Positions 5,080 through 10,936 of a DNA stretch of 64,000 nt are shown here, piece by piece; the stretch's first letter is position 1, and each line of letters opens with the position of its first letter. Origin of the DNA: Phycisphaerales bacterium (GTDB taxonomy: Bacteria > Planctomycetota > Phycisphaerae > Phycisphaerales > UBA5793); assembly GCA_020852515.1 (NCBI GenBank), contig JADZAS010000015.1, positions 248,001-312,000 of the forward strand. The letters run 5' to 3'. The notes below the pieces were generated by a model. That model ran no database searches. It worked only from the letters and a program-made list of their open reading frames with translations, and had not been told where the DNA came from. The translations under genes were made by a program, and so were the position numbers.

Positions 5080-5886
5080 ATGCTGCGCGAGCAGGACATT
5101 GCGACAGCCACGCGAGCGGCGCAACTCGTCGTCGAAACGCACCAGTTCCTCGCGCCGCGGCTCCGCGCGGGGATGACGCTGGGGGAGATCGACCGGCTCG
5201 TCGGCGAGACGCTGGGGCGGCTCGGGTCGCGCAGCGCCTTTCTCGGCTATCGCACCGGCAGGTACCCCGCGTTTCCGTCGCACGCCTGCCTGAGCGTCAA
5301 CGACGTCGTCGTCCACGGCACCGCGGGCATGACGCTCGAGCCGCTCAAGCGCGGCGACGTGATTTCCATCGACATCGGCGTGGTCTACCACGGCTGGATC
5401 GGCGACGCCGCCTGGACCTACATCATCGAACAGGGCAGCGATGAAGCGATCCGCCTGTGCGAGTGCGGCATCGAGGCCCTGCGGCGCGGCGTCGAGCAAC
5501 TGCAGCCGGGCTACCCCCTCACCCGCTGGGCCCGCACGGTGCAGCAGTGCGTCGAGAGTGAATACGGCTTCCACTGCGTCACCGGCCTGGGCGGTCACGG
5601 CTACGGCCGCAGCCTGCACACCGAGCCGCACGTGGCCAACGCGATACCCGCCTATCCGGGCGACTGGCCCGATGCGCAGTACCGCATCACGCCCCCGCTT
5701 CTGCTCGCCGTCGAGCCGATCATCGCCGTGGGCACCAGCCGGATGGAGCAAAAGCCGCGGCAGTGGCCCATCCGCACCGCCGACGGCTCGCTGAGCGTGC
5801 ACTACGAGCACGACGTGCTGATTACCGAGCAGGGGCCGCGCGTGCTCACGGCTGGTCTCGAAGAACTGCCGATGATCGTCGGCTGA
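5080..5886 (+). CDS. map: type I methionine aminopeptidase
   Basis: Removes the initiator methionine from new proteins in the cytoplasm. 268 residues, the normal length for the bacterial type I enzyme. The five metal ligands can be placed: Asp in ISIDIGV, Asp in IGDAAWTY, His in GYGRSLHTEPHV, Glu in LAVEPIIAVG and Glu in the C-terminal LITEQGP. The substrate-binding His is in VNDVVVHG. The ATG at 5080 fits the family N-terminus (MLREQDIATATRAAQLV); the frame is open further upstream inside the previous gene but that part is not MetAP-like. There is no Shine-Dalgarno sequence. TACCAT at 5066-5071 sits 8 nt before the ATG, suggesting a near-leaderless message. Confidence 0.95.
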   Translation: MLREQDIATATRAAQLVVETHQFLAPRLRAGMTLGEIDRLVGETLGRLGSRSAFLGYRTGRYPAFPSHACLSVNDVVVHGTAGMTLEPLKRGDVISIDIGVVYHGWIGDAAWTYIIEQGSDEAIRLCECGIEALRRGVEQLQPGYPLTRWARTVQQCVESEYGFHCVTGLGGHGYGRSLHTEPHVANAIPAYPGDWPDAQYRITPPLLLAVEPIIAVGTSRMEQKPRQWPIRTADGSLSVHYEHDVLITEQGPRVLTAGLEELPMIVG

Positions 5887-5993
5887 GGCCGGCGGCCGGG
5901 ACGCGCCGATATCATTGCTTCTCAGGGCCTGCGCGTGTGGCGCGCGCGGGCGAATTTCGACGCGCTCACTGAAAACTGCAAGAGGAGAAGCAC

Positions 5994-6218
5994 GTGAAGG
6001 TTTCCATCAAGTACTGCGGCATGTGAAACTACCGCCCGCGAGCCGCCGGTCTGGCGGACGAGATCAAAAATCGATTCGGCGCCAAGGCCGAGTTGATCGA
6101 GGGTTCAGGCGGCGTCTTTGACGTGACCGTGAACGGCAAACTCATCTACAGCAAGCACGAGACGGGCGAGTTTCCCGACCACGCGAAACTGCTCGACGCG
6201 ATGGCGAGTTACGCCTAA
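5994..6218 (+). CDS. SelW-like (SelT/SelW/SelH, Rdx family) selenoprotein with in-frame TGA read as selenocysteine
   Basis: A 74-residue thioredoxin-like protein hidden from ordinary gene calling because codon 11 is TGA (6024-6026). With TGA as Sec it begins VKVSIKYCGM-Sec-NYRPRA, giving the CxxU redox motif after the first beta strand that defines the Rdx family. The rest fits too: LADEIKNRFGAKAELIEGSG, then GVFDVTVNGKLIYSK and HETGEFPDHAKLL, and a stop TAA at 6216-6218. Start GTG at 5994 has a strong GAGGAG at 5982-5987. A hairpin 21 nt downstream of the TGA has the features of a bacterial SECIS. Family proteins are thought to act in thiol redox reactions. Decoding needs selA, selB, selC and selD elsewhere in the genome, which I cannot see. 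If there is no selenocysteine machinery this would be a nonsense pseudogene, but intact coding on both sides argues against that. Confidence 0.88.
6043..6057 (+). promoter_or_regulatory. bacterial SECIS apical hairpin (bSECIS) of the SelW-like gene
   Basis: Five GC base pairs (CCGCC 6043-6047 with GGCGG 6053-6057) close a GGTCT loop (6048-6052). The loop begins 22 nt after the last base of the TGA, inside the reading frame, which is the placement known for bacterial SECIS elements bound by SelB. The GGUCU loop is the one I recall for the E. coli fdhF SECIS, in which the loop guanines contact SelB. The sequence and pairing are seen; SelB binding is inferred. Confidence 0.8.
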
Positions 6219-6235
6219 CCTCGCCTGCGCGAAAC

Positions 6236-6269
6236 AAAGCCCCCGCCGAACCGGTTCGGCGGGGGCTTT
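6236..6269. terminator. bidirectional intrinsic terminator
   Basis: A 15-bp inverted repeat (arms 6236-6250 and 6255-6269) around a CCGG loop, with TTTT after the right arm. On the other strand the hairpin is followed by TTTGTTTC. It lies between the converging SelW-like gene (+) and the subtilase gene (-) and can serve both. Confidence 0.85.
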
Positions 6270-6292
6270 TCGTTGGAGCATGAAGCGCCGGA

Positions 6293-8092
6293 CTACTCGA
6301 TGAAGAGATCGACCACGTTGCTCTTGCGCTGGAACTCGGCGGCCTGCATCCAGACGTGCACGCCCTGCGTGTTGGGCGGCACGCGCTTGCGGAGCAGTGC
6401 GTAACCATCCTGGTCGGCCGTGCGGACGCCCGCAAGAGCCGGCGAGGCGAGGTCGATCGTCACATCCAGTTGCGGCACGTAGGTGCTGCCGACGCCCTGG
6501 ATGCTGTAGATGAACGCGACCGTCGCGCCCGGCGTGGCGCGGAAGACTTCGGCGTCGGCATTCACGCCCGCGACGAAGCGCGAGGTGACCAGACGCATCG
6601 GCGGATCTCCGGTCATCGCCGCGATCACGGCTTCATAGGCATTGACGCGGCCCGAGCCGAATCGGTTGTCCTTGCCCGGATCGCCCAGGTCCAGCGCCGT
6701 GGCTTCGAGCAGGTCCTTGATGGCGAAGTGATCGAGGCTGGGGTTGGCTTCCAGCATCAGCGCAATCGTGCCCGCCACGTGCGGCGTGGCCATGGAGGTT
6801 CCGCTGTAGATCTCGTAGCCCGAGCAGTTTGACGAGGTGGACTTCGTATTCACGCCCGGCGCCGAGACGGTCGGCTTGATTTTTCCGGGAGGATATGGCC
6901 AGTCATTCCAGGGCTGGATGCCGGTCCAGGAGACCGGACCCTGGCTCGAAAAACTCGCGAGGCTGTCGTTGCAGTCCGTCGCGCCGATGGTGATCATGTC
7001 CGGCACGTCGCCGGGCGTGCGCACCGAGTCAACCGGCGGGCAGCAATTGCCTTCATTGCCCGCGGCGAACACCACCGCCACGCCGGCCGCCATGGCGTTC
7101 TCGCACACCGTGCGCCACGTCGGGCGATCAGGCAGTGTTGAATGCGGCCAGCCGAGGCTGGCGGTGAGCACATGCGCGCCGTTGTCCACGCCGTACTGGA
7201 TGCTGTCCCACACCGACTGCTCGCCGGAGAAGGAGTTCCAGAACTTGAGCGTCATGAACGAGGCGTCGGGAGCCATGCCCGTCTGCGTGCCGTTCGCGCC
7301 GTCGCCGCACACCGTTCCGGTCACATGGGTGCCGTGACCGAAGGTGTCGCCGACGTTGTTGTTGTTGCTCTCGAAGTTCCAGCCGTTGATGTCGTCGATG
7401 AACCCGTTGCCGTCGTCATCGATGCCGTTGTTGGCCACTTCGCCGGGATTGGTCCAGACCTGGTTTCGCAGATCGGGATGCGTGAGGCAGGCGCCGGTGT
7501 CGATGACGCCGACGACGACGCCGCGGCCGGTGAAGCCGAGTTCGTTCCAGACGAGCGGCGCGCCCATGAGGTCGACGCCGCATTCGATTTCGCTGATCGT
7601 GTTGCCTGAGCCCGGCTCAAAGGGCAGCACTTCCACGCCCATTGGCCGATCGTAATGGACGTAAGCCACGTCGGGCCGCTGCGCGATCTGCGCGATCACT
7701 TCCGGCGTGGCGCGCACGCCGATGACGTTGTGAATCCACAGCGGGCGGATCCGCTCGACGGCGCCGGTCGCCTGGGCGCGATTGAGGTCGGCCAGCAGGT
7801 CGGCCTGCGACGCCTCGGCGAGCGGCTTGAGCAGGTCGCGCATGGCCTGCCGCTGGAAGTCTTTGTCTCCCAGGTGGGCGATGCGATCGACCTCCTGGCG
7901 CGAGGCCTGGTCGCGCATGATGATCGCGACCGGGACGATGGCATCCGGCTGGGCCTGGCGGAGCACCTCGGCGAGGTTGTCGCGCAACTTCGCCGAACCG
8001 ATGTCCTGAGCCCACGCGGTGCCCGCGCCGCTCAGTCCCAGCGCACCCAGCGCCAGTACTGCAGCCGCGATGTGACGACTTCTCCTGTACAT
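6293..8092 (-). CDS. secreted S8 subtilisin-like serine peptidase with shared C-terminal module
   Basis: 599 residues. A Sec signal peptide (MYRRSRHIAAAVLALGALG... ending AWAQ) is followed by an inhibitor-I9-like prodomain (about 25-150) and the S8 catalytic domain. Triad: Asp in VGVIDTGACLTHPDL, His in FGHGTHVTGTVCG, Ser in YSGTSMATPHVAGT. A Ca-binding-like GIDDDGNGFIDDINGWNF follows the Asp motif, as in many planctomycete subtilases. The last ~95 residues (from MRLVTSRFVAGV) form a module also found in the second subtilase and, more divergently, in the FG-GAP proteins. Start ATG at 8092 has a strong GGAGGAG. The upstream in-frame start at 8128 would precede the signal peptide. The 177 bp between this start and the MscS stop holds no gene that I can support. 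Confidence 0.92.
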   Translation of the reverse strand: MYRRSRHIAAAVLALGALGLSGAGTAWAQDIGSAKLRDNLAEVLRQAQPDAIVPVAIIMRDQASRQEVDRIAHLGDKDFQRQAMRDLLKPLAEASQADLLADLNRAQATGAVERIRPLWIHNVIGVRATPEVIAQIAQRPDVAYVHYDRPMGVEVLPFEPGSGNTISEIECGVDLMGAPLVWNELGFTGRGVVVGVIDTGACLTHPDLRNQVWTNPGEVANNGIDDDGNGFIDDINGWNFESNNNNVGDTFGHGTHVTGTVCGDGANGTQTGMAPDASFMTLKFWNSFSGEQSVWDSIQYGVDNGAHVLTASLGWPHSTLPDRPTWRTVCENAMAAGVAVVFAAGNEGNCCPPVDSVRTPGDVPDMITIGATDCNDSLASFSSQGPVSWTGIQPWNDWPYPPGKIKPTVSAPGVNTKSTSSNCSGYEIYSGTSMATPHVAGTIALMLEANPSLDHFAIKDLLEATALDLGDPGKDNRFGSGRVNAYEAVIAAMTGDPPMRLVTSRFVAGVNADAEVFRATPGATVAFIYSIQGVGSTYVPQLDVTIDLASPALAGVRTADQDGYALLRKRVPPNTQGVHVWMQAAEFQRKSNVVDLFIE

Positions 8093-9268: not shown

Positions 9269-10936
9269 ATGAACGCGCGGCGGACAGGTCGGCTGCGTCG
9301 CGGGCTGCTTCATGCAGCTTCGGTCGGTCTGACGCTCGTGGCCGCCATCGGCCGCCCGGCAACAGCGCTGGCGCAGAGCGATGCAGGCGAAATCGCCCCG
9401 TCGGCCACGGCCTACTTCCCCGAATCGCGCTGGCTCAGCGACGCCCATTGGCTCGACGACGACACGCTGCTCGTCTCATCGCGCGTTGACGCGATCAACC
9501 TCTGGTCCGTCGCCGTCGAGAACTGGGTCGAACCGGCCTTCGGCCTTGTGGGCGTCGCGCTGCTCTGGATGCTGCTGCGCCTGCTGCGGCGCTCGTGGGG
9601 CCAATGGCGACTCGCGCCCGGCCAGCCCCACTGCCGCGATTGCTACTACCAACTCACGGGCCTGACCGAGCCAATCCGGTGCCCCGAATGCGGCGCTGAA
9701 CTTGGCGAGTCACGGATCGTCCGGGGGCATCGCGCGCCGTACCGGGCCCTGCTCGCCGTCCTGGTTTTGCTGGCCATGCTTGGCGGTCTCTACTTTGGAT
9801 TCAGCGACGCGCTGCCGCGCCACGGCTGGCTGTCGCGGCTGATCCGCTGGCCTTCGGCGCGCAGCATGAACTGGGCCGTCGCCGCAGGTGACTCGGGCTT
9901 CATCGACCGGCACCGGATTGCGATGGTCCGGCTGGATGAGATCGACGCCCGCACCGGCGCCGTGCGGCACCGCATCGTCAGCCGGCCCATGTTCACGCGG
10001 ACCGGACCGGAAATTGAAGAGCCGTACTTCGTCATTCTCACAAAGACCCGCTCGATCCTGCTGATGGGCCAGCGCGAACTGTTGGAATTCGACCTGCAGA
10101 ACGGCTCGCTGCGGCGTCGCATCGCGGCCTTCGATGCTTCCGAGCCGGCGGTGGTGCTTCGAGGGCTGGCGCTGGATCCGCAGGAGCGCTTCGTCTGCGC
10201 CATCCGCTCGGACCGGCAGTCGGCGACCATCGATCTGCCCAGCGGCAGGCGTCGCGCGCTCGTGCCGCTCGACCGCGTGCCGGGCTGGCCCAACGTGCCC
10301 GTCGCTGCGGTGCGCGAGCCGGGGACAATCGTGTCGGTGCGCGGCACCTCGGGTGAGCCGAATCTGCCGTCGCTGGAACTGTTCGATCTGAGTGATGGCA
10401 AGTCGCTGGCGCCGCTGCGCGGCGCCGTCTCCAGCGAGTGCTGCCTCGCCGGCGGCTCCGAGCACGTGATCGCGCTCTACAGGGGCCTCGCTCGATCGAC
10501 CTGGTCAGCGGAGGGAACCCTCGTGATTGCCGGTGTGTGGTCGCCCGGCCAGGGGCAGGTGCCACCCATGCCCCACCCGCCGGTGGATCTGCCGAGAGCG
10601 GCCGATACGGCGTTGGATGGATGGACGACCGCCACGACGCCGCGCCAGTCGGACGAGCGGATGGGTCTCGGTTCAGGCGGTTCGCCGGCATACCTCACCA
10701 CCGGCTCTTTCGCACTCATCGATGCGGCCGCGGGCAGAATCCTCGCCACGCTGGGGGGGTCGCCAGGCGATGAAGAGCCTCACGTGGCGTTCTCGCCCCG
10801 CGGCGGCACGCTGGCCGTGTGGGCAACCGGAGGCTACGGCAAGACCGGCCGGCGCACGATGTCGTGCAGCGTCGTCTTCTACGACACCTCGCCTCTGTCG
10901 CTCAGGCCGGCGGCAGCCGGCGCGAATCAGAAGTGA
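9269..10936 (+). CDS. membrane protein with zinc ribbon and C-terminal propeller-like region
   Basis: 555 residues, no family recognised. The N-terminus looks like a signal sequence or first membrane segment (GLLHAASVGLTLVAAIG... ATALAQ). A membrane segment follows at about 90-110 (FGLVGVALLWMLLRLLRR), then a zinc ribbon with paired cysteines (CRDCYYQLTGL ... CPECGAEL, about 126-150), then another membrane segment at about 162-180. The topology puts the ribbon on the cytoplasmic side. The C-terminal ~350 residues are beta-rich with WD40/YVTN-like fragments (LALDPQERFVCAIRS, VAFSPRGGTLAVWA). Zinc ribbons of this CxxC...CPECG form are common in planctomycete membrane proteins. TATGCT at 9258-9263 lies 5 nt before the ATG. 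It overlaps the converging acetyltransferase gene by 10 bp. Confidence 0.7.
   Translation: MNARRTGRLRRGLLHAASVGLTLVAAIGRPATALAQSDAGEIAPSATAYFPESRWLSDAHWLDDDTLLVSSRVDAINLWSVAVENWVEPAFGLVGVALLWMLLRLLRRSWGQWRLAPGQPHCRDCYYQLTGLTEPIRCPECGAELGESRIVRGHRAPYRALLAVLVLLAMLGGLYFGFSDALPRHGWLSRLIRWPSARSMNWAVAAGDSGFIDRHRIAMVRLDEIDARTGAVRHRIVSRPMFTRTGPEIEEPYFVILTKTRSILLMGQRELLEFDLQNGSLRRRIAAFDASEPAVVLRGLALDPQERFVCAIRSDRQSATIDLPSGRRRALVPLDRVPGWPNVPVAAVREPGTIVSVRGTSGEPNLPSLELFDLSDGKSLAPLRGAVSSECCLAGGSEHVIALYRGLARSTWSAEGTLVIAGVWSPGQGQVPPMPHPPVDLPRAADTALDGWTTATTPRQSDERMGLGSGGSPAYLTTGSFALIDAAAGRILATLGGSPGDEEPHVAFSPRGGTLAVWATGGYGKTGRRTMSCSVVFYDTSPLSLRPAAAGANQK

Follow-up and report, generated by a model that had tools for sequence, protein, structure and literature searches.

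The hairpin at 6043-6057 of the window, the 64,000-nucleotide stretch analysed here as a whole, is almost certainly the selenocysteine insertion element (bSECIS) of the SelW-like selenoprotein gene located at 5994-6218 on the forward strand. A preliminary description, made from the letters of the stretch, had read the hairpin as a bSECIS that makes an in-frame TGA a selenocysteine (Sec) codon. This reading is supported by the covariation of the stem, by the contrast with homologues carrying Cys, by the assignment of the gene to the Rdx/SelW family and by the complete Sec machinery of the source genome.

The SelW-like gene and its product

Translation with TGA read as U, together with family models, defines a SelW-like (Rdx family) selenoprotein gene at 5994-6218 (+ strand), which begins with GTG, comprises 74 residues with a predicted Sec at codon 11, and ends with the stop codon TAA at 6216-6218. 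Direct reading of the sequence reveals a likely Shine-Dalgarno sequence upstream of the GTG (5981-5987, + strand; AGAGGAG region, AGGAG-like) and, 3′ of the gene, an inverted repeat resembling an intrinsic terminator, CCCCCGCCGAACC/GGTTCGGCGGGGG, and then a T-run (6240-6271, + strand). With TGA as Sec the N-terminus reads VKVSIKYCGMUNYRPRAAGLADEIK..., and the CxxU redox motif Cys-Gly-Met-Sec (CGMU) is encoded by TGC GGC ATG TGA at 6015-6026 (+ strand). The TGA itself, codon 11 at 6024-6026 on the same strand, is predicted to be read as selenocysteine on the grounds that homologues carry TGA at the equivalent codon. The mechanical ORF list of the window does not include the gene. It lies between two ORFs that, from their translations, we take to be methionine aminopeptidase-like (ending at 5886) and subtilisin-like (opposite strand). 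Elsewhere in the window, ARAGORN called a tRNA-Cys at 10366-10459 inside a long protein ORF, where Rfam indicates no tRNA; this call is probably false.

Three curated models, each over its cut-off, place the gene in the Rdx/SelW family. PF10262 matched the genome at 5994-6218 with 68.5 bits, one TGA lying inside the match, and with 76.7 bits when the protein was used, while NF041051 and TIGR02174 gave 91.7 and 62.1 bits, respectively. In line with the family definition, which demands CxxU or CxxC, the product has CxxU near its N-terminus, and among the solved structures similar to it are those of Selenoprotein W (2npb) and of bacterial SelW-related proteins. With Cys-Gly-Met-Sec in a thioredoxin-like Rdx fold, it would most probably act as a small thiol/selenol redox protein, a role that we infer from its sequence.

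SelW-like proteins formed the most abundant selenoprotein family in the Sargasso Sea set (PMC1088965) and are listed as pfam10262 CxxU in a review of prokaryotes (PMC9312934); bacterial members with a bSECIS have long been known (PMC1088965, PMC1794560, PMC9312934). The gene at 5994-6218 has in common with the bacterial SelW-like selenoproteins (PF10262; TIGR02174; NF041051) the N-terminal CxxU, a length of about 75 residues, the TGA at the Sec codon and the bSECIS directly downstream, and differs from them in sequence divergence and host lineage only. In the literature covered, one paper, PMC1794560, was returned for planctomycete SelW-like selenoproteins, and its main text names no such planctomycete gene.

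Selenocysteine machinery and distribution of the TGA form

The source genome (4.7 Mb, 39 contigs), whose nearest named relatives are metagenome genomes of Planctomycetota and Phycisphaerales, contains the complete Sec-decoding trait. On one strand of contig C16, selD (348 bits), selB (363 bits, with SelB-wing_2 and SelB-wing_3 domains), selA (531 bits) and tRNA-Sec (68.2 bits; called SeC with anticodon tca by ARAGORN) are clustered in this order. Planctomycete isolates P1 and P2 from Porphyra likewise possess the full set of Sec insertion genes as well as selenoproteins (PMC4807772); the main text of that report does not mention SelW, and the order selD-selB-selA-tRNA-Sec is that of the source genome. 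The selD gene (L144, C16:102379-103305; also L123) has an in-frame TGA of its own, past which TTGCAC-AGGTT-GTGCAA places a loop start 31 nt downstream. Thus, selD is itself likely a selenoprotein gene, with a second bSECIS-like hairpin predicted from its sequence.

These observations bear on the possibility that TGA specifies another amino acid throughout the genome (Trp or Gly, code 4 or 25) and that the hairpin is incidental. The in-frame TGA alone would fit such a code. However, the full Sec machinery is present, the TGA falls where this known CxxU family has Cys or Sec, and TGA terminates ordinary genes of the window, such as the methionine aminopeptidase-like ORF. Given this use of TGA as a normal stop, a genome-wide code change was rejected, and its probability is negligible.

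The TGA is widespread among relatives of the gene, being found at the Sec codon in 172 of the 185 homologues read. Within the order, 400 genomes were sampled, 20 of which carry an Rdx gene; 20 of the 21 matches have TGA at this codon and one has TGC. SelB exceeded the cut-off in 26 of these 400 genomes, including 18 of the 19 with a TGA-type Rdx gene. The remaining one, G331, is 90% complete and in about 230 contigs, and the sole genome of the order sample with a Cys-type Rdx gene, G345, has no SelB over the cut-off. At the level of the phylum, an Rdx match was obtained in 143 of 392 genomes, nearly all with one TGA. Further TGA-type homologues come from metagenome genomes of other groups, gammaproteobacterial, acidobacterial and chloroflexotal ones among them. 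One genome from the genus of the source genome, G024, harbours two TGA-type SelW-like genes (L036 and L022); the second is less like those of the genus members, which suggests transfer, an old duplication or contamination.

Sequence, covariation and conservation of the hairpin

The hairpin (6043-6057, + strand) consists of the arms CCGCC (6043-6047) and GGCGG (6053-6057) enclosing the loop GGUCU (GGTCT in the DNA, 6048-6052); 16 nt separate the TGA from the 5′ arm. Its identification as a bSECIS draws on covariation, silent sites, loop codon bias and published bSECIS limits. The sequence agrees with the perfect 5-bp stem and GGUCU loop first described, and the loop starts 21 nt past the last base of the TGA, exactly as claimed. 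According to PMC13188914, a bSECIS has an apical loop of 3-9 nt with G in the first two positions followed mostly by G or U, an upper stem of 4-16 bp, a distance of 16-37 nt between UGA and apical loop and a minimum free energy of at most -7.5 kcal/mol. The 5-nt loop and 5-bp stem lie within these size limits, GGUCU conforms to the rule for the first two positions, and the isolated 15-nt hairpin, at -8.2 kcal/mol (-9.5 with neighbouring bases added), passes the energy limit. The spacing of 21 nt falls inside the published range, and the view that it is typical of bacterial SECIS elements holds.

The preliminary description had also equated the loop with that of E. coli fdhF. This is correct: the sequence of fdhF, the prototype of the bSECIS, reads TGA, 18 nt, GGTCT. 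Both elements thus share GGUCU, with G in the first two loop positions, whereas the distance from UGA to the loop is 18 nt in fdhF and 21 nt here and the stem sequences are unrelated. The fdhF SECIS contains a bulged U; no comparable bulged U was identified in the hairpin at 6043-6057. A search for SelB, SECIS and GGUCU together found nothing in the literature covered.

Perfect 5-bp stems whose 5-nt loop has G in its first two positions occur 16-37 nt past 21 of the 908 TGAs on the + strand of the window, and the same class follows 2.4% of TGAs in Markov-resampled sequence, so that the stem by itself is weak evidence. When the loop is restricted to RGTYT, the site at 6043-6057 is the single case on both strands of the window, and resampled sequence yields one per 8070 TGAs. 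Rfam scans, run on 5800-6300 with a loose threshold and on the entire window with the gathering threshold, returned no SECIS-like family, which is little informative because bSECIS elements are short and varied.

Covariation was assessed in 102 non-redundant TGA-containing homologues and compared with 500 shuffles, which ignore relatedness, and with slid positions. The five stem pairs are formed in 91.2% of cells (81.1% in shuffles), and both sides of a pair have changed in 43 cells as compared to 11.0 in shuffles. The resulting covariation score of 0.331 (0.151 when shuffled) was reached in 0 of 500 shuffles and lies far above every slid control. Accordingly, the check for covariation in related genomes that had been proposed at the outset revealed compensatory changes across the 102 sequences, silent sites included, and with 91.2% of cells paired the stem is, overall, not disrupted in relatives that keep the TGA. 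Compensated stems include, besides CCGCC/GGCGG of the window, CGGTC/GGCCG (L070), CTGTC/GGCAG (L084), CCGAC/GTCGG (L053), CCTCC/GGAGG (L103) and CCGCA/TGCGG (L068).

The second stem pair lies between two Ala codons and involves the third base of each, a silent position in both cases. These bases are paired in 113 of 121 sequences, with 74.9 expected and none of 20000 shuffles as high. In nearly every homologue carrying the usual element the loop reads RGUYU. Of 151 sequences, 136 use GGT or AGT as the loop codon, yet downstream in these genes GGT accounts for 12% of Gly codons and AGT for 5% of Ser codons. The pairing of silent sites and the rare loop codons indicate that the RNA, and not the protein only, is conserved. 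A tree-based test of the silent sites retained only 4 well-supported independent pairs, in the expected direction (p 0.125) but too few to reach significance, or 16 if unsupported branches are allowed. RNAalifold found no consensus structure for all 102 rows, and a weak partial one (-0.3 kcal/mol) for the 89 rows with the usual loop.

Could the stem be a by-product of the conserved Ala-Ala-Gly-Leu-Ala and of high GC, and the TGA a true stop or a sequencing error in a pseudogene? It is true that these residues are fairly well conserved and that, as shown above, a perfect 5-bp stem near a TGA is no rarity. Nevertheless, this explanation is extremely improbable: two silent third positions vary together, the loop codons are rare elsewhere in the gene, the TGA stands at the same codon in an intact frame over many genomes and phyla, and the presence of SelB tracks the TGA form. 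A pseudogene, a sequencing error or a chance stem kept by codon identity was rejected on the basis of the silent-site covariation and the co-occurrence with SelB.

Cys homologues that keep the same stem would likewise have spoken for codon identity. All five Cys (TGC or TGT) homologues lack the CCGYC-RGUYU-GGCGG element, with between one and four of the five stem pairs formed and the RGUYU loop in none. This contrast is weaker than the covariation because the Cys homologues are rather distant from the protein of the window. Six Planctomycetota genomes (L124-L129) carry, alongside a TGA copy, a CxxG-type Rdx homologue, in which Gly replaces Sec, and two of these homologues, L126 and L127, are still able to form five pairs, with a different loop.

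In a minority of TGA homologues, mostly from Acidimicrobiia with a few from Planctomycetota, the usual stem is not formed and a GUGAGC-type sequence is found. In the TGA-type Rdx homologues L043, L054, L055, L060, L117-L120, L122, L194 and L205, GCCGUGAGC or a similar sequence replaces the RGUYU hairpin. Homologues with the GUGAGC-type sequence must use another structure, and those listed may use another bSECIS class.

Alternative folding, decoding and implications

In the free RNA of the window, the minimum-energy fold pairs CCGC (6036-6039) with GCGG (6054-6057) instead of forming the 5-bp hairpin. When 6027-6036, about 10 nt past the UGA, are omitted from folding, the hairpin attains a probability of about 0.98. 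The folding check suggested in the preliminary description bears out the hairpin once these bases are left out, and fails to do so when they are free and the other pairing is preferred. About this length of mRNA is covered by a ribosome that holds UGA in its A site.

Alternatively, the element might be a true bSECIS whose functional structure is the longer fold, the minimum-energy structure as long as 6027-6036 are free. We regard this as very unlikely, since relatives do not conserve the 5′ arm of the longer fold, and the 5-bp hairpin both co-varies and dominates with about 10 nt masked. For the 5-bp hairpin, the following sequence of events can be envisaged. The UGA at 6024-6026 would enter the ribosomal A site, and the bases just past it would be covered. 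The downstream hairpin would then be free to fold and would be held by the winged-helix end of SelB, while the EF-Tu-like part of SelB would bring Sec-tRNA-Sec to the A site, with the result that UGA would be read as Sec.

The folding predictions raise the further idea of a ribosome-gated SECIS in this GC-rich planctomycete, in which the SelB-binding hairpin would appear only with about 10 nt past the UGA covered. Folding of the 89 homologues with the usual loop favours the hairpin in 65 cases without masking and in 72 with 11 nt masked, indicating that masking matters more for the species of the window than for the family. Gating is an unlikely, if conceivable, refinement; if true, it would confine SelB binding to ribosomes on the point of decoding Sec.

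Both the insertion mechanism and the protein family are already known, and the gene is a planctomycete addition to them. Gene finders that stop at TGA lose the gene at 5994-6218, and the set of co-varying hairpins offers a natural alignment useful for refining bSECIS models. Given how often an Rdx match, nearly always with TGA, was found in the genomes of the phylum sample, counts for Planctomycetota may underestimate both selenium use and this small redox protein.
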